The notes beneath the pieces are model-generated. The model did no database searches. It was not told where the DNA came from and saw only the letters and a program-made list of their open reading frames with translations. From NCBI RefSeq assembly GCF_021044935.1, contig NZ_JAJNMP010000002.1:62001-126000 (forward strand): 64,000 nucleotides of DNA, written 5' to 3'. Below are positions 55,286 to 62,408 of the stretch, in pieces. This DNA comes from Agromyces cavernae. Lineage in GTDB: Bacteria; Actinomycetota; Actinomycetes; Actinomycetales; Microbacteriaceae. Each line of letters begins with the position of its first letter. Within the stretch, counting starts at the first letter, position 1. A program made the translations under genes and the position numbers.

Positions 55286-56122
55286 TTACGAGACCGACGG
55301 CGCGAGTCGAGCGAGTCGTGCCTCGAGCATCGCGAGGTCGGGGCTCACTCCGCCCGCGTCGGCGTAGGCACCCGGCTCGCCGCCCGAGCCGACCTGGATG
55401 ATGGCGCGACGGACCGAGTCGTCGCCCGTCGCATGTCGCGCGCCGTCGTCGGCCAGCATCTCGGTCAGCTGGGCGACGGCGCGCTCGGCCCGATTCGCGA
55501 TCGGGAACCAGGGGAGCGCGCTGTGCCAGGCACGGAAGGCGAGGAGTACGAGATGATGCAGCTGGTCGAGGTGCGTGCGCTCGTGCGCGATCACCGCGGC
55601 GAGCTCGTCGGCGCGCAGCGTCTCGACCAGACCGTCGGTGAGCACGGTCGCCGTGCGGATGCCCGGCACGCAGTAGGCGAGCGGCACCGGGTGTGCGAGT
55701 ACCCGGGTGCGGGGTTGCCCGGGGATCGGGTCGCCGAGCAATGCGATGAGGTGGTGCTGGCGACGCCGCTCGCGCTCGGCACGCACTGCGGTGACAGCGA
55801 GGTTGAGTGCGAGGTGCACGGCGAGCCCGGCGGCGAGCGTCAGGGCCGCAAGCTGCACGACGCCGAACCCTGCAGGAATCGGACCTGCGAAGATCGCGGG
55901 AACGAGTGCCGTCCATGCGCCGAACAGTGATCCGGCGGGCGCGGCGCCGAACAGCAGCAGGCTGCCGATCATCGAGACCCCGCCCGCGACGGCGATCGCC
56001 TGCCAGAGCGCGAGGGCGAGGGCGGGGGAGCGAGAAGGCCACGCGGCGCGTGCGAGGGCCACTGGCACCGGCCACGCCAGCGCGAAGGCGAGGATTCCGA
56101 GCAGGACCGCAGCGACGAGCAC
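55286..56122 (-). CDS. M56-family membrane metallopeptidase (BlaR1-like, no sensor domain)
   Basis: 278 residues from GTG 56122. Three or four membrane segments surround a zinc peptidase site AVIAHERTHLDQLHHL (HExxH). It lacks the C-terminal penicillin-binding sensor of true BlaR1/MecR1. Its partner is encoded 2 nt upstream: a BlaI-type repressor. In BlaR1-BlaI systems the protease cleaves the repressor to induce genes; here the inducing signal is unknown. The pair is divergent from cydABDC. Confidence 0.9.
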   Translation of the reverse strand: MLVAAVLLGILAFALAWPVPVALARAAWPSRSPALALALWQAIAVAGGVSMIGSLLLFGAAPAGSLFGAWTALVPAIFAGPIPAGFGVVQLAALTLAAGLAVHLALNLAVTAVRAERERRRQHHLIALLGDPIPGQPRTRVLAHPVPLAYCVPGIRTATVLTDGLVETLRADELAAVIAHERTHLDQLHHLVLLAFRAWHSALPWFPIANRAERAVAQLTEMLADDGARHATGDDSVRRAIIQVGSGGEPGAYADAGGVSPDLAMLEARLARLAPSVS

Positions 56123-56124
56123 GG

Positions 56125-56499
56125 TCAGCCGCGTGCGAGTTCGTCGAGCAGTCGGCGCAGCGTGGCGGCCTCGCCGTCGCTGACGGTGCCGACGAAGCGG
56201 GCGAGGGCGGCGTCGCGGTCGCTCGAGCGGTCGAGGACCTCGTGCATGAGCTCTGCCGTGTGCTCTTCACGTGAGAGCAGCGCGTGGTACCGATGCGGTC
56301 GGGTCTCGCGCGCGCGGCTGACGAATCCCTTGCGCTCGAGCCGTGACAGCACCGTCAGCACTGTGGTCGTGGCCACGGCCTTGCCCGGCTCGCGGCCGCG
56401 CACGGCGAGCGCGTCCCGCAACTCGTTGGCGGTGAGTGCGGCGTCGCTCGACCACAGCACGTCCATCACGGATCGCTCCAGTTCGCCGAGGTTCGCCAT
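56125..56499 (-). CDS. blaI: BlaI/MecI-family repressor
   Basis: 124 residues from ATG 56499. Winged-helix repressor: LGELERSVMDVLWSSDAALT at the start, TTVLTVLSRLERKGFVSR with the recognition helix, and a C-terminal dimer region. In M. tuberculosis the BlaI protein controls a beta-lactamase and, reportedly, ATP synthase genes. Here two TCTAC-N5-GTAGA dyads in the gap towards cydA are likely operators. A TATTCT -10 ends 6 nt before the ATG, with the first dyad at the -35 position, so self-control is likely. Confidence 0.93.
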   Translation of the reverse strand: MANLGELERSVMDVLWSSDAALTANELRDALAVRGREPGKAVATTTVLTVLSRLERKGFVSRARETRPHRYHALLSREEHTAELMHEVLDRSSDRDAALARFVGTVSDGEAATLRRLLDELARG

Positions 56500-56505
56500 A
56501 CAGCA

Positions 56506-56511
56506 AGAATA
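56506..56511 (-). promoter_or_regulatory. -10 box (TATTCT) for blaI
   Basis: TATTCT on the minus strand ends 6 nt before ATG 56499. Seventeen base pairs further upstream lies the arm of operator dyad 1. Confidence 0.55.
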
Positions 56512-56522
56512 TCGCCATCGAG

Positions 56523-56567
56523 AGAAGTGTTCTACGCGCGGTAGAGAAGTGCTCTACGCTCTGTAGA
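56523..56567. promoter_or_regulatory. Twin BlaI-type operators between blaI and cydA
   Basis: Two dyads TCTAC-N5-GTAGA at 56531-56545 and 56553-56567. They lie in a 22-bp direct repeat beginning AGAAGTG (56523 and 56545). The centre spacing of 22 bp equals about two DNA turns. The consensus is like the TACTACA-type BlaI boxes. Confidence 0.75.
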
Positions 56568-56607
56568 AGAACGATTCTCGACGACCGCGGTCGTGAAAGG
56601 GGCATCC

Positions 56608-58020
56608 GTGAACGAGCTGCTCGACCCGCTGCTCCTCGCCCGCTGGCAATTCGGGCTCACCACCATCTACCACTTCCTGTTCGTTCCCCTCACGATCGGT
56701 CTCGCGTCGACCGCCGCGGTATTCCAGACCGCCTGGTACCGCACCGGCAAGGCCGAGTACCTGCGGATCACGCGGTTCTTCGGCGGGATCTTCCTCATCA
56801 ACTTCGCGATGGGCGTCGTGACCGGCATCGTTCAGGAGTTCCAGTTCGGCATGAACTGGTCGGAGTACTCGCGGTACGTCGGCGACGTGTTCGGCGCGCC
56901 GCTCGCCCTCGAGGGCCTGCTCGCGTTCTTCTTCGAGGCCACGTTCATCGGGCTCTGGATCTTCGGCTGGGACAAGCTGCCCCGCGGCCTGCACCTCGCG
57001 ACGATCTGGTGTACGGCGATCGGGTCGATCGTCTCGGCCTACTTCATCATCGCGGCGAACGCGTTCATGCAGAATCCGGTCGGGTTCCAGATCAACGAGG
57101 AGAAGGGCCGTGCCGAACTCGTCGATATCGGCGCCCTGCTCACGAACCCCGTTGCCGTCGCCGCGTTCCCGCACACGATCGCGGCGAGCTTCATGGTCGC
57201 CGCCGGCCTCGTCATCAGCGCGGCGGCGTGGCACCTGGCGCGCAACCAGCACCTCGACACGATGCGGCCCGCCCTGAAGTTCGGCCTCTGGGTGATGGTC
57301 GGTTCGGGCCTGCTCACCACACTCTTCGGCGACCAGCTGAGTCTTGCAATGGTCGCGACGCAGCCGATGAAGATGGCCGCAGCCGAGGCGACGTACGACA
57401 CCGTCTGCGGTGCGGATGCCTCGTTCTCGATCTTCACGCTCGGAACCCCCGACGGCTCGACCGAGCTGTTCTCGATCCGCGTGCCGTACCTGCTGTCATT
57501 CCTCTCGACGCACACCTTCGATGGTTGCGTCGAGGGCATCAACGACCTGCAGGCGCAGTACCAGGAGCTCTTCGGGCCGGGCGACTACACCCCGATCATC
57601 TGGGTAACCTACTGGTCGTTCCGCTGGATGATCGGCCTCGGCCTGGCGCACGTGCTCGTCGCCGTCGTCGGCCTGTGGCTCACCCGCAGGGGACGTCTGC
57701 CGAAGCAGCGCTGGGTGTGGAAGATCGCGATCTGGAGCTTCCCCCTCTCGCTCGCCGCCATGATCGTGGGCTGGGTCTTCACCGAGATGGGGCGGCAGCC
57801 GTGGATCGTGTTCAGCCAGATGTTCACCGAGTCCGCCGTCTCGCCGAACGTGACCGGCCTCGAGGTGCTCATCTCGCTCATCGCATTCACGCTCATCTAC
57901 GGCGCGCTCGCGGTCGTCGAGGTGCGTCTCGTGATCCGCGCCATCAAGAAGGGACCACCCGAGGTCGGCGAGCCAGACCCCGAGACCGGTCGTCACGAAC
58001 CCGCAGCAACGGTGTACTAG
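56608..58020 (+). CDS. cydA: Cytochrome bd ubiquinol oxidase subunit I (CydA)
   Basis: 470 residues from GTG 56608; AAAGGGG lies 5 nt upstream. An in-frame GTG at 56593 would add five codons. The family text FGLTTIYHFLFVPLTIGL contains the heme b595 His (residue 22); HTIAASFMVAAGLVISAAAW holds the heme b558 His; and EMGRQPWIVF is conserved. Total length is that of the short Q-loop group. CydA binds the three hemes of the high-affinity terminal oxidase. The gap to cydB is 6 nt. Confidence 0.96.
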   Translation: MNELLDPLLLARWQFGLTTIYHFLFVPLTIGLASTAAVFQTAWYRTGKAEYLRITRFFGGIFLINFAMGVVTGIVQEFQFGMNWSEYSRYVGDVFGAPLALEGLLAFFFEATFIGLWIFGWDKLPRGLHLATIWCTAIGSIVSAYFIIAANAFMQNPVGFQINEEKGRAELVDIGALLTNPVAVAAFPHTIAASFMVAAGLVISAAAWHLARNQHLDTMRPALKFGLWVMVGSGLLTTLFGDQLSLAMVATQPMKMAAAEATYDTVCGADASFSIFTLGTPDGSTELFSIRVPYLLSFLSTHTFDGCVEGINDLQAQYQELFGPGDYTPIIWVTYWSFRWMIGLGLAHVLVAVVGLWLTRRGRLPKQRWVWKIAIWSFPLSLAAMIVGWVFTEMGRQPWIVFSQMFTESAVSPNVTGLEVLISLIAFTLIYGALAVVEVRLVIRAIKKGPPEVGEPDPETGRHEPAATVY

Positions 58021-58026
58021 GAGGCA

Positions 58027-59037
58027 ATGGACATGGATCTCACGGTGCTCTGGTTCTGGATCGTCGCGTTCCTCTTCGTCGGCTACTTCGTGCTCGACGG
58101 CTTCGACTTCGGCGTCGGAATGTCGCTGCCCTTCCTCGGCAGGGACGACGTCGATCGCCGCGTGCTCATCAACACGATCGGGCCGATCTGGGACCTCAAC
58201 GAGACCTGGGTCATCGTCGCGGGCGCCGCGCTGTTCGCCGCGTTCCCCGAGTGGTACGCCACGCTCTTCTCGGGGTTCTATCTCGCGCTCCTGCTCATCC
58301 TGCTCGCGCTCATCGCGCGCGGCGTCTCGTTCGAGTACCGGCACCAGCGGCCCGAGTCGCAGTGGAAGCAGTGGTTCGACCGCATGATCATCGTGGGCTC
58401 GGCCGTGCCGGCCTTGCTGTGGGGCGTCGCGTTCGCGAACATCGTGCAGGGCGTGCCGCTCGACGCCGACCACAACTTCACGGGGTCGCTCATCGACCTG
58501 CTGAACCCCTACGCGTTGCTCGGCGGTCTCACGACCCTGCTGCTGTTCTTCACGCACGGCGTCGTGTTCGTCTCGCTGAAGACCGAGGGCGACCTGCGCG
58601 AGCGTGCCCGGCGCCTCGCCGCCCGGGCGGGCGTCATCACGATCGTCGTCGCCGCCGCGTTCCTCGTGTGGACCGGGCTCGCGTACGGCAGCCTCTGGTT
58701 CTGGATCCTCGCCGCCGTCGCCGCCGTCGCCCTGATCGCAGGCTGGCTCGCGAATGCACGCGGTGCCGAGGGCGTGGCATTCACGCTCCTCGCGGTCACG
58801 GTCGCCGCCGCCGTGTTCGCGCTGTTCGCGTCGCTCTTCCCCGACGTCATGCCGGCGTCGAACGACCCCGCGAACAGCCTGACGATCGCCAACGCGTCGA
58901 GCTCGACGTACACGCTGACGGTCATGAGCTGGGTGGCGCTCGTGTTCCTCCCGCTCGTGCTCGCCTATCAGGGCTGGACGTACTGGGTGTTCCGCAAGCG
59001 GGTCACGCGGGCATCGATCGAGGCGGCAGTGCACTGA
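58027..59037 (+). CDS. cydB: Cytochrome bd ubiquinol oxidase subunit II (CydB)
   Basis: 336 residues from ATG 58027, with TAGGAGG directly before it. Polytopic (about eight membrane segments). Signatures: FVGYFVLDGFDFGVGM at the start, GPIWDLNETWVIVAGAALFA and GGLTTLLLFFTHGVVFV. It pairs with CydA to form the oxidase. The stop is followed after one base by the GTG of cydD. Confidence 0.95.
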   Translation: MDMDLTVLWFWIVAFLFVGYFVLDGFDFGVGMSLPFLGRDDVDRRVLINTIGPIWDLNETWVIVAGAALFAAFPEWYATLFSGFYLALLLILLALIARGVSFEYRHQRPESQWKQWFDRMIIVGSAVPALLWGVAFANIVQGVPLDADHNFTGSLIDLLNPYALLGGLTTLLLFFTHGVVFVSLKTEGDLRERARRLAARAGVITIVVAAAFLVWTGLAYGSLWFWILAAVAAVALIAGWLANARGAEGVAFTLLAVTVAAAVFALFASLFPDVMPASNDPANSLTIANASSSTYTLTVMSWVALVFLPLVLAYQGWTYWVFRKRVTRASIEAAVH

Positions 59038-59038
59038 C

Positions 59039-60679
59039 GTGAAACCGCTCGATCCGAGGCTCATCCGCCGCTCACGGTCCGCCCGCGCGTTCCTCGTCGC
59101 GGGCGGTGCGCTCGCCTTCGTCCAGGCCGGCGCGATCATCGCGTTCGCCTGGACGCTCGCGACGCTCGTCACGGGACTCATCGACGGCATGCGGATGCCC
59201 CATGCCTGGCCGCTGCTCGGAATGCTCGTGGCCGCGGCATCCGTTCGCGCACTTGCGGCATGGGCATGGGACCTCGTGGGTTCGTCGGGCGCCATGCGGG
59301 TCAAGGCGGAACTGCGCACCGAGTTGCTCACCGCCCTCGAATCGAGGCCGACCGGAGTTCCCGGCTTTCCGACCGCGCGCGTCGCCACGTTGCTCGGGGC
59401 CGGGCTCGACGCGCTCGACGACTACTTCGGCACCTACCTGCCGCAGCTCGTGCTCACCGTCATCGCGACGCCCGTGCTCATCGTCACGGTCTGGATCGCC
59501 GATCCGCTCTCGGGCCTCGTGCTCGTGATCGTGCTGCCGCTCATCCCGATCTTCATGGCGCTGATCGGAATGGCGACCGAGGCCGTGCAACGGCGACAGT
59601 GGCAGAGCCTCGCCTCGCTCTCGAGAGGGTTCCTCGAAGTCGTCGGCGGAATCTCGACGCTCGTCGCGTTCGGCCGTGCCGATCGGCAGGCCGCTCGCAT
59701 CCGCACGGTCACCGACGACTATCGCGCCCGCACCATGAAGGTGCTGCGCATCACCTTCCTCTCGGGCTTCACGCTCGAGTTCGCCGCCAGCCTCTCGGTC
59801 GCGCTCGTCGCCGTGTCGATCGGGCTGCGGCTCGTCGGGGGTGACATGGCCCTCGTGGCGGGGCTGCTCGTGCTCGTGCTCGCGCCCGAGGTGTTCCTGC
59901 CGTTGCGCAACGTCGGCGCCGCCTTCCACGCATCGGCGGCGGGCGTCACGGCGTCGAGCGATGCGTTCGACCTGCTGGCGGCGACACGCGAGCCCCGTGA
60001 CTCCGGTGCCTTCGGGGCGGAGCGCATCGCTTCGACCACCGCGGGGCCGCCCGCCGACGGGCTCGTGATCGTGGGGCTCACCCTGCGGCGCGGCGAGCGG
60101 GTCGTGCTCGACGGATTCGGACTGGAGGCGCGTCCGGGCGAGGTCGTCGCCATCACGGGCGAGAGCGGCTCGGGCAAGTCGAGCCTGTTCGCCGCGCTGC
60201 TCGGCTTCGCCGATGCCGCGGGCGACATCACGCTCGACGGTCGCCGGTTCGAGCCCTTCGACCGGTCGGCGATCGCGTGGGCGGGTCAGACGCCGGCACT
60301 GCTGGCCGGCACGATCGCGACGAATGTGCGGCTGGGCGACGAAGGCGCCGATCTCGCACTGCTCGCCCGTGCCCTCGACCTCGCCGACGTCGAGCTCGAC
60401 CCCGAACGCGCGCTCGGACCAGGGGGTGCCGGACTCTCCGGCGGCCAGGCGCAGCGAGTCGCGACCGCGCGGGCGATCCATCGCCTGCTCGCCCGTGACG
60501 GGCGGCTGCTGCTGCTCGACGAACCGGCGTCGGCGCAGGACGAGGATCGTGAGCTGCGCCTCGGGCGACGGCTGCGTGAGCTCGCCGCCGATGGGCGCAT
60601 CGTGCTCGTGACCACCCACCGCACCGCGATCGTCGAGTCCGCCGACCGGTGCATCGACCTGGCGGTGACGCATGTCTGA
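59039..60679 (+). CDS. cydD: ABC transporter CydD (cytochrome bd assembly)
   Basis: 546 residues from GTG 59039. Half-transporter with an N-terminal membrane domain (six segments) and C-terminal ATPase: Walker A TGESGSGKSSLFAALLGF, signature LSGGQAQRVATARAIH, Walker B LLLLDEPASAQDED and switch VTTHRT. CydDC exports thiols (cysteine, glutathione) or moves heme; it is needed for bd oxidase assembly. Signature Gly and Asp residues are intact. Overlaps cydC by 8 nt. Confidence 0.94.
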   Translation: MKPLDPRLIRRSRSARAFLVAGGALAFVQAGAIIAFAWTLATLVTGLIDGMRMPHAWPLLGMLVAAASVRALAAWAWDLVGSSGAMRVKAELRTELLTALESRPTGVPGFPTARVATLLGAGLDALDDYFGTYLPQLVLTVIATPVLIVTVWIADPLSGLVLVIVLPLIPIFMALIGMATEAVQRRQWQSLASLSRGFLEVVGGISTLVAFGRADRQAARIRTVTDDYRARTMKVLRITFLSGFTLEFAASLSVALVAVSIGLRLVGGDMALVAGLLVLVLAPEVFLPLRNVGAAFHASAAGVTASSDAFDLLAATREPRDSGAFGAERIASTTAGPPADGLVIVGLTLRRGERVVLDGFGLEARPGEVVAITGESGSGKSSLFAALLGFADAAGDITLDGRRFEPFDRSAIAWAGQTPALLAGTIATNVRLGDEGADLALLARALDLADVELDPERALGPGGAGLSGGQAQRVATARAIHRLLARDGRLLLLDEPASAQDEDRELRLGRRLRELAADGRIVLVTTHRTAIVESADRCIDLAVTHV

Positions 60680-62408
60680 TCGAACGACCGAGATGCTGCG
60701 CCGCGCGGTTCCGCGCTTCTCGCGCCTGCTGCCGTCGGTGCTGTTCGGCATCGGCTCGGCGGGGTCGAGCATCGCGCTGCTCGCCTGCTCCGCCTGGCTC
60801 ATCGCGCGCGCCGCGGAACAGCCGCCGGTGCTCTACCTCTCACTCGGCATCGTGGGCGTGCGGGCGTTCGCGCTCGGGCGCGCGGCGTTCCGTTACCTCG
60901 AACGCCTGACCGGGCATGACGCATCCTTCCGACAACTCGCGACGATCCGGGCCGGGGTCTTCGAGCGCCTCGTGCCGATCGCACCCGATGGCCTCGCGGC
61001 AAGTCGGCGCGGCGACCTGCTCGCACGTTTCGTCGACGACGTCGACGAGCTGCAGAACGTGCCCCTTCGTGTCGTGCAACCGGTCGTGAGCGCGGCGATC
61101 ATCCTCGTGCTCGCCGTCGTGGGCGTCGCGTTCATCGCCCCGGAATCGGGGTGGGCGGTGCTCACCTGCCTCGTCGTCGGCATCGGTGCGACACTGCTCG
61201 TGCAGCGCCGCTCGGCGATCCACGCCGAGCGGACTCTCGCTCCGCTTCGCGGCGAACTGCAGGGCGCGATCGTCGAACACGCCCAATCGCTCGACGTGCT
61301 CGTCGCGTTCGACGCGGCCGAGGCCGGCCGCCGGCGCATCGACGCCATCGGGGCCAAGCTCGCGAAGGCGACGCGGGCGCGGGCGGTGGCGAGTGGCGCC
61401 GCCTCTGCCGCGATGGTCGCCGTCGGCGGAATCGCCGTGGCAGCGAGCCTCAGCGCCTCGGCGCCCCTGCTCGCAGCGGGTCGCATCGACGGGCCGACAT
61501 TCGCGGTGCTGTGCCTCGTGCCGCTCGCGATCGCAGAGGTGGCCGGGGCGATTCCCCTGGCCGCCGGCGCGCTGCGACTCGCGCGAGCGAGCGCCGCTCG
61601 CGTCGCCGGCGCCGTGCCCGACGACGTGCCGGCGGGCGTCCCGGTGCCTCCCGCCGCTCCAGGGACGCCTCCGACGGGACATCCGACGCCGGCGATCGAA
61701 CTGCGCGACGTCCGCGCGCACTGGCCGGCGGTCGCCGGTGACGACGACCAGGTCGTCGACGTGCGACCGGCGGCACTCGAGGGCGTCGACCTCTCGATCG
61801 CCCCGGGCGAGCGAGTGCTCGTGCGCGGCGCGTCGGGCGCAGGCAAGACCACGCTCGCGCACGTGCTCGTGCGGTTCCTCGACTACGAGGGGTCATACCG
61901 CATCGGCGGCGTCGAAGCGTCGAGCCTCGACCCCGGCGCCGTGCGGCGCATCATCGGGCTGGTCGAGCAGCGTCCGTGGCTGTTCGACGAGGACGTGCGC
62001 CAGAACCTCCTGTTCGCGAGGGACACTGCGAGCGACACCGAACTGCGCGAGGTGCTCGACCGGGTCGGGCTCGGCGAGTGGCTCGAGGAGCGTGGCGGGC
62101 TCGACGCTCAGGTGGGGGAGCGCGGCAACCTCGTGTCGGGTGGGCAGGCGCAGCGCATCGCCCTCGCCCGCGCCCTGCTCGCCGACTTCCCGGTCCTCGT
62201 GCTCGATGAGCCGACGGCGAGCGTCGATCCCGCACGCGCCGACGCGCTCATCCGCGACATCACGGGTGCGGCGAGCCGATCGGGCCGCTCGGTGGTGCTC
62301 ATCGCCCACGCGGGCGTCGATGAACGGCTCGTCGACCGGGTCGTCTCGCTCGACGCCGGTCGTGTCGTCGACGCAGCACCCCTACCCATCGTCGAATCTC
62401 TCAGGTAA
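60672..62408 (+). CDS. cydC: ABC transporter CydC (cytochrome bd assembly)
   Basis: 578 residues from ATG 60672. Second half of the CydDC exporter. Text GIVGVRAFALGRAAFRYLER in the membrane part is typical of CydC. The ATPase shows Walker A RGASGAGKTTLAHVLVRFLD, Q-loop VEQRPWLFDEDV, signature NLVSGGQAQRIALARALL and Walker B VLVLDEPTASVDP. Completes the operon cydABDC; no further cyd gene follows. Confidence 0.94.
   Translation: MSDRTTEMLRRAVPRFSRLLPSVLFGIGSAGSSIALLACSAWLIARAAEQPPVLYLSLGIVGVRAFALGRAAFRYLERLTGHDASFRQLATIRAGVFERLVPIAPDGLAASRRGDLLARFVDDVDELQNVPLRVVQPVVSAAIILVLAVVGVAFIAPESGWAVLTCLVVGIGATLLVQRRSAIHAERTLAPLRGELQGAIVEHAQSLDVLVAFDAAEAGRRRIDAIGAKLAKATRARAVASGAASAAMVAVGGIAVAASLSASAPLLAAGRIDGPTFAVLCLVPLAIAEVAGAIPLAAGALRLARASAARVAGAVPDDVPAGVPVPPAAPGTPPTGHPTPAIELRDVRAHWPAVAGDDDQVVDVRPAALEGVDLSIAPGERVLVRGASGAGKTTLAHVLVRFLDYEGSYRIGGVEASSLDPGAVRRIIGLVEQRPWLFDEDVRQNLLFARDTASDTELREVLDRVGLGEWLEERGGLDAQVGERGNLVSGGQAQRIALARALLADFPVLVLDEPTASVDPARADALIRDITGAASRSGRSVVLIAHAGVDERLVDRVVSLDAGRVVDAAPLPIVESLR

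Follow-up and report, generated by a model that had tools for sequence, protein, structure and literature searches.

The window, by which we mean the whole 64-kb stretch of DNA that was analysed, carries a gene for a BlaI-type repressor followed by a membrane protease gene, and divergent from these the cytochrome bd genes cydABDC. The two gene rows are separated by a 108-base gap with a G+C content of 54%, compared to 70% for the window. The features of the locus are as follows.

55286–56122, minus strand: BlaR-like membrane HExxH metalloprotease, 278 aa (Pfam Peptidase_M48, E 4.2e-9)
56125–56499, minus strand: blaI, BlaI/MecI/CopY-type repressor, 124 aa (Pfam Penicillinase_R, E 1.1e-23)
56506–56511, minus strand: presumed -10 element of blaI, TATTCT, read by eye, 6 nt 5′ of the ATG
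56522–56565, no strand: 22-bp direct repeat (56522–56543 and 56544–56565), 19/22 identical
56531–56545, no strand: putative operator dyad 1, overlapping the presumed -35 element of the blaI promoter
56553–56567, no strand: putative operator dyad 2, its end 40 nt 5′ of the likely cydA start
56608–58020, plus strand: cydA, cytochrome bd subunit I (Pfam Cyt_bd_oxida_I, E 9e-158)
58027–59037, plus strand: cydB, cytochrome bd subunit II (Pfam Cyt_bd_oxida_II, E 7.6e-111)
59039–60679, plus strand: cydD, ABC exporter for cytochrome bd assembly (NCBIfam TIGR02857, over cut-off)
60672–62408, plus strand: cydC, ABC exporter for cytochrome bd assembly (NCBIfam TIGR02868, over cut-off)

The protease gene begins 2 nt past the blaI stop codon. 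The open frame of cydA, which is 88% identical to cydA of Agromyces lapidis, runs from 56593; the GTG at 56608, preceded by a Shine-Dalgarno-like AAAGGGG, is the likely start. Most of what is known about BlaI-type regulators concerns resistance to antibiotics and copper. The BlaI encoded here is covered over its full length by PF03965 (positions 1–115 of 115, E 1.1e-23, over cut-off) and its nearest solved structure is 2G9W (E 4.4e-17). It contains no cysteine and therefore lacks a Cys-X-Cys metal site. Since it is the single BlaI match in the genome at E<=1e-8, the regulator is unambiguous at this threshold.

A pattern search for exact TCTAC-N5-GTAGA identified TCTACGCGCGGTAGA (dyad 1) and TCTACGCTCTGTAGA (dyad 2) in the blaI–cydA gap and no other site in the window. 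The dyads are spaced by 22 bp, and dyad 1 lies 31 nt from the blaI ATG; the sites are located where a blaI promoter would be expected. Across 300 simulated windows (first-order Markov, composition as in the window), there was one exact site in total and no pair within 60 bp. Twin dyads between blaI and cydABDC are thus far beyond chance. The initial annotation, which described two exact dyads within a 22-bp direct repeat, the second ending 40 nt before the cydA GTG, is borne out on both counts, the repeat identity of 19/22 being counted with the eight-base flank GAGAAGTG included. Its placement of dyad 1 at the blaI -35 element agrees with our reading by eye and was not recovered computationally: a promoter scan of 56450–56650 gave no sigma-70-like pair over threshold, and the -35 and -10 elements are for this reason placed by eye. 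With the -10 element only 6 nt from the ATG, the blaI transcript is presumed to be leaderless.

In A. lapidis and two further genomes of the genus a single dyad is found, also 31 nt from the blaI ATG. The repeat copies, including the eight-base flank, are near-identical, and the three congeners have one dyad each; the twin dyads therefore probably arose when one operator was recently duplicated in tandem, locally in this genome. The duplication looks like a return to the multi-operator layout usual in the family, where 43 of the 59 genomes carrying this BlaI have at least two dyads between blaI and cydA. The twin layout of the initial annotation thus holds here and in most of these genomes, but not in the three congeners. 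The absence of the second dyad from these congeners, and the possibility that a 22-bp repeat is a neutral duplication, would also suit chance repeats. This explanation has practically no probability left, since the frequency of the sites, their place and the motif positions that were not part of the search all exceed chance, and at least one dyad is kept in 4/4 genus genomes examined. Among the arrays that were fetched, neighbouring dyads are 22–25 bp apart in 38 of 61 cases and 42–44 bp apart in 9; spacings mostly of 22–25 bp fit dimers bound on one face of the helix. Within the blaI–cydA arrays of two genomes (G111:C1:2675653 and G021:C1:2541784) we also observed TCTAC-N6-GTAGA, and a six-base spacer may be tolerated.

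The 4.07-Mb genome, of which the window is C3:62001–126000, contains three exact dyads, namely the twin pair and one at C3:361230, which sits 53 bases 5′ of the start of a flavohemoglobin gene (hmp) whose top NCBIfam match is the NO-inducible flavohemoprotein, below its cut-off. Flavohemoglobin detoxifies NO, and cytochrome bd tolerates it. The initial annotation confined the regulon to the blaI–cydA locus, which is too narrow, as a dyad also precedes hmp here and respiratory genes in relatives. At up to one mismatch, a backward-read control pattern was commoner in the whole genome than the motif (137 matches compared to 55), and degenerate-match counts are hence uninformative. The composition of the backward pattern in coding DNA differs; it was dropped as a null, and the same half-sites at other spacer lengths were adopted instead. 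The signal rests on exact sites, spacing, place and co-occurrence. None of the six one-mismatch sites examined in this genome has a respiratory gene downstream: three are intragenic (L187–L189), L184 lies 80 nt 5′ of a glycosyltransferase-like gene, L186 lies 5′ of an MFS-like gene and L185 falls where a glutamine-synthetase-like gene ends, the last three genes being named by eye. Because of this, a regulon wider than cyd and hmp is seen only in the relatives.

To follow the dyads across the family, 150 Microbacteriaceae genomes were sorted by their best BlaI match into those with this BlaI (E<=1e-27, n = 59; the limit was chosen after a gap from 8e-29 to 2e-23 was visible), those with only a more distant BlaI (n = 29) and those with none at E<=1e-8 (n = 62). 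The exact dyad was present in 86 of the 150 genomes: in 57/59 genomes of the first class (191 sites), 22/29 of the second (50 sites) and 7/62 of the third (7 sites). In the N6–N10 controls the numbers of sites per spacing were 19.2, 10.4 and 19.0, respectively. As these controls show no class difference, the excess of dyads is tied to the five-base spacer and to BlaI. The Mann-Whitney test between the classes with this BlaI and without BlaI gave a p value of 8.5e-22, which is too small because the genomes are related. The blaI–cydA locus itself holds dyads in 56 of the 59 genomes with this BlaI and accounts for 117 of their 191 sites; the expected dyads at the blaI locus are missing from G049, G134 and G097. 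After coding of the site classes by hand, 35 of the 191 sites were left with no recurrent or respiratory neighbour, where about 19 are expected by chance from the spacing control. The initial annotation had staked its claim on the dyads not being absent from relatives that keep the gene order, and they persist there: all nine named Microbacteriaceae blaI–cydA loci keeping this order have at least one dyad, in line with the 56/59 genomes.

The tie to BlaI bears on whether some other transcription factor reads the dyads, with BlaI co-occurring by linkage. We regard this as highly improbable, as the dyads track the presence of BlaI and the more distant BlaI genes also have dyads at their own promoters (L013, L016, L163, L167 and L169). 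An argument in its favour comes from hmp. NsrR, a member of the Rrf2 family, regulates hmp, and among the 18 hmp genes found at E<=1e-60 in 17 of the 150 family genomes, 11 have an Rrf2 gene, presumably NsrR, directly upstream. Seven of these hmp genes belong to genomes with this BlaI, and six of the seven carry an exact dyad starting 68–108 bp upstream, the expected dyad being absent at hmp of G084; in the other genomes, none of 11 has a dyad within 400 bp, even at two mismatches (Fisher p 4e-4, relatedness ignored). An Rrf2 gene is next door in 4 of the 6 dyad-bearing cases, so BlaI is unlikely to be the sole regulator of those four hmp genes. The two dyad-bearing cases with no adjoining Rrf2 gene are those of this genome and G001. 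Rrf2 matches over the Pfam cut-off occur in 14 of the 17 hmp-bearing genomes and are absent from this genome, G001 and G056; here, at least, the other factor would not be an Rrf2 protein over cut-off. From this distribution, BlaI may have joined NsrR at hmp in some lineages and replaced it in that of this genome. The sequences themselves show the dyads and where they lie, as well as their co-occurrence with BlaI and the hmp link.

A further point against another factor is the way in which the operator appears to be read. We aligned 194 distinct sites drawn from all three BlaI classes and looked at positions that had not been part of the search. Of the half-sites, 81% have T at -1, 76% have A/T three bases out and 84% have a purine at spacer position 1. 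A purine and a pyrimidine occupy the two spacer ends in 136/194 sites compared to 13/42 control sites of other spacing, these 42 being among the matches listed for other spacers. The 17-mer derived from the 194 sites is TTCTACRNNNYGTAGAA. At up to two mismatches it has 39 matches in this genome (control, 23), with the hmp site as the sole perfect one; dyad 2 departs from it at one position and dyad 1 at two.

The outer base of the half-site was fixed as T in the family-genome search, and the named loci are the only fair sample of it. It is T in all nine named Microbacteriaceae blaI–cydA loci (19 dyads, 38 half-sites) and A in 11/12 half-sites of four Kribbella/Aeromicrobium loci. We take residue 44 of BlaI, from BlaI/MecI structures, to lie in the recognition helix. 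Tyr is absent from this position in the former loci and invariably present in the latter. BlaI proteins with Tyr44 also occur in seven Micromonosporaceae whose cydA has A-type dyads, and in Virgisporangium (Tyr44) an A-type dyad lies by blaI; with loci counted once, the outer base is A in 13/14 half-sites near Tyr44 BlaI genes. Exceptions are two Nesterenkonia (Val44) whose own blaI has one A-type half, Gulosibacter (Tyr44) with a mixed dyad at cydA, a dyad near an Ile44 BlaI (L163) with one A-type half, and Actinomadura, where A-type dyads occur and the nearest BlaI has His44. This covariation between residue 44 and the outer base, seen among related proteins that are not independent, is the pattern that direct reading by BlaI would give.

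The dyads might serve the autoregulation of blaI alone, with cydABDC merely adjoining. The constant 31 nt between the nearest dyad and the blaI ATG in 4/4 genus genomes, where the spacing to cydA varies, agrees with such a role. Nevertheless we consider a purely autoregulatory function very unlikely, because dyads also precede cydA at loci with no adjacent blaI in genomes that have BlaI elsewhere. These include two Nesterenkonia loci (L058 and L064), seven Micromonosporaceae loci and L010, L014, L015, L020 and L021. Of the 67 named cydA loci with no blaI in the fetched stretch, a few of which end at contig edges, 11 have dyads. BlaI was searched in 28 of the 80 named genomes and was found elsewhere in 11/11 genomes with dyads at such a locus, compared to 8/15 checked dyad-less genomes. 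The dyad at hmp is likewise placed for action in trans, and an excerpt of PMC5473688 states that in Mycobacterium tuberculosis the cytochrome bd promoter is bound by BlaI. Six loci, from Micromonospora and Phytohabitans, have blaI, the protease gene and the beginning of a cydA gene one after another on one strand, unlike the divergent layout of the window. When this co-directional stretch was compared with the cydA locus that carries dyads in the same genome, no common 40-mer was present in any of the five pairs compared. The association of blaI, protease and cydA recurs in different orders, which argues for function.

Several other genes adjoin dyads in the relatives. In 9 genomes a dyad lies at the start of a row of phosphoglycerate-mutase-like, TlpA-like and CcdA-like genes (cytochrome-c assembly); all three genes were found in 9/9 loci, TlpA and CcdA being named by eye. 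Dyads also occur by hmp in 6 genomes, by atpB in 4, by ctaC in 3, by pta in 3, by hemA/hemE in 2, by a PLDc_N gene followed by menD in 2 and by an ArsR-like gene in 2, as well as once each by a pyrophosphatase and a PPK2 gene (Pfam).

Further neighbours were also seen. A DUF308 membrane protein is encoded next to dyads in 5 genomes (L011, L153, L155, L156 and L223; at L011 it was assigned only by BLAST cluster) and may be an unrecognised respiration-related protein. A 259-aa protein (L159 and L160) and a 379–382-aa protein (L117 and L119) recur as well; one member of each kind was scanned, and neither the L160 nor the L119 protein has a Pfam match. In two small-genome relatives (L163 and L169) dyads separate the more distant BlaI gene from an adjoining gene for a PCu(A)C copper chaperone, and at L012 a dyad precedes a PCu(A)C-like gene (39% identical). 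The PCu(A)C neighbours would be another link to oxidase assembly.

The product of the gene after blaI was called an M56 partner in the initial annotation. Pfam files this HExxH membrane protease as M48: at E<=0.001 Peptidase_M48 is the only match, with the M56 profile not matched, and NCBIfam gives only a weak HtpX match far below cut-off. The HExxH residues (H180, E181 and H184) are invariant in 14/14 protease sequences. The predicted model is helical (pLDDT 86), and its best structural neighbours are Ste24, a soluble zinc peptidase and BlaR1, all of them weak (best E 0.012, none at or below 0.001). No penicillin-binding sensor domain was detected in the 278-aa protein by Pfam and alignment. 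The protease ends early compared to the 313 residues of that of A. lapidis; the C-terminal membrane helix, the last one in the proteins of A. lapidis and other genera, is missing in the proteases of this genome, G079 and G142. F102 of BlaI is invariant in 14/14 sequences and shares its number with the cleavage point N101-F102 in the excerpt of PMC3305447, a match by residue number alone. By analogy with BlaR1/BlaI, a protease-triggered switch is plausible.

Taken together, we think it very probable that the dyads are operators of the adjacent BlaI for blaI-protease, cydABDC and hmp, with derepression by the protease. The claim that one repressor controls itself, its partner and cytochrome bd is supported in part, by the placement, conservation and co-occurrence of the dyads; its M56 label is not supported. 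What follows on BlaI binding and repression, on co-transcription, on cleavage and on the kind of signal is inferred. BlaI dimers would bind the dyads two helical turns apart on the same DNA face. Once bound, BlaI would prevent transcription from the leaderless blaI-protease promoter and silence the divergent promoter of cydABDC, and it would act in trans on hmp, so that the regulon here would comprise at least cytochrome bd and NO detoxification; in some relatives it would reach other respiratory genes. The membrane protease would cut BlaI, again by analogy with BlaR1/BlaI, and cleavage would lead to derepression when respiration is impaired by NO, low oxygen or a blocked aa3 branch.

The signal might instead be beta-lactams or cell-wall damage, with respiration controlled only within that response. 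The repressor belongs to the same family as that of BlaR1/BlaI. According to an excerpt of PMC5473688, beta-lactam/clavulanate treatment of M. tuberculosis induces blaI-blaR and cydAB together, and as a consequence respiration need not be the primary signal; in the available part of PMC3305447, cell-wall dipeptides are described as able to displace BlaI from its operator. The protease here has no penicillin-binding sensor, which speaks against this alternative; the point is not decisive, as mycobacterial BlaR (Rv1845c) likewise has no extracellular sensor (excerpt of PMC5473688). In addition, neither a beta-lactamase nor a penicillin-binding protein was identified among the 30 dyad-neighbour proteins scanned. 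Overall, we judge a beta-lactam or cell-wall response unlikely.

A broader reading of the operator scheme is that BlaI-type repressors paired with sensor-less membrane proteases act as a dedicated respiration switch in many actinobacteria. With all its parts taken jointly, we put this forward tentatively, as possible though somewhat short of probable. The protease would sense the condition of the membrane or of the respiratory chain (NO, quinone or oxidase failure). The regulon released would consist of genes for cytochrome bd, NO dioxygenase, heme, menaquinone, cytochrome-c assembly, aa3 oxidase and ATP synthase, its make-up varying by genus. Mycobacterial beta-lactamase control would then be a side branch, and BlaI would have taken hmp where NsrR was lost. 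The distribution of the dyads suggests that in a family other than the mycobacteria respiration, together with NO defence, may be the main BlaI target, and that this perhaps holds for a large part of the actinobacteria. If this is true, 'penicillinase repressor' annotations would mislead, and a harmless soil strain could serve to find the input of the sensor-less protease.

A tie of BlaR/BlaI to cytochrome bd is already in print for mycobacteria, and the kind of link is thus known. Citing Sala 2009, PMC5473688 names in the excerpt the promoters of cytochrome bd and ATP synthase as binding sites of mycobacterial BlaI; the regulon of M. tuberculosis BlaI (Rv1846c) is said there to include the cytochrome bd, ATP synthase and blaC promoters, and WhiB4 to repress blaR. 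Control of the ATP synthase operon by BlaI is also reported in parts of PMC5874750, PMC7924339 and PMC12565901, all of which, like PMC5473688, cite Sala et al. 2009. Other regulators are named for mycobacterial cydAB, namely SenX3-RegX3 (excerpt of PMC5874750) and, in M. smegmatis, Crp1 (excerpt of PMC7739888); in the part available of PMC7771538, cydA and blaI are merely co-listed in one expression table. Neither the BlaI–hmp link nor the family-wide respiratory set was found in the literature searched, chiefly excerpts of non-subscription papers. As far as that literature shows, added here are the position of the pair beside cydABDC, the hmp link, further respiratory targets, the covariation of operator and helix, and the family-wide co-occurrence test. 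The genome comparisons would extend the BlaI–respiration link from mycobacteria to another bacterial family.

The system of M. tuberculosis resembles the present one in that it provides the closest solved relative (2G9W), has a sensor-less BlaR and finds a parallel in the atpB dyads of the relatives. It differs in that here blaI and the protease gene adjoin cydABDC, the main target, hmp is added and the neighbours that were scanned include no beta-lactamase gene; the half-sites here have T as their outer base, and for Tyr44 proteins, 2G9W among them, the prediction is A. With BlaI-BlaR1 and MecI-MecR1 of Staphylococcus and Bacillus, the locus shares adjacent genes for a repressor and a membrane metalloprotease, divergent from the target with several operators between them, three operators being described for the bla switch of B. 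licheniformis in an excerpt of PMC3305447. Unlike these systems, it has no penicillin-sensor domain, its targets are respiratory and its operator core is TAC-N5-GTA rather than TACA/TGTA, the form given for BlaI/CopY operators in an excerpt of PMC7253601. CopY, described there as homologous to BlaI with TACANNTGTA as its operator, is also the nearest NCBIfam type (CopY_TcrY is the best match, far below cut-off); however, the BlaI here has no cysteine, and the TACANNTGTA core is not matched, the spacer being one base longer. Finally, as regards control of hmp by NsrR, an Rrf2 gene lies directly upstream of most of the family's hmp genes (11/18), whereas this genome has no Rrf2 match over the cut-off and its hmp is preceded by a BlaI dyad instead.
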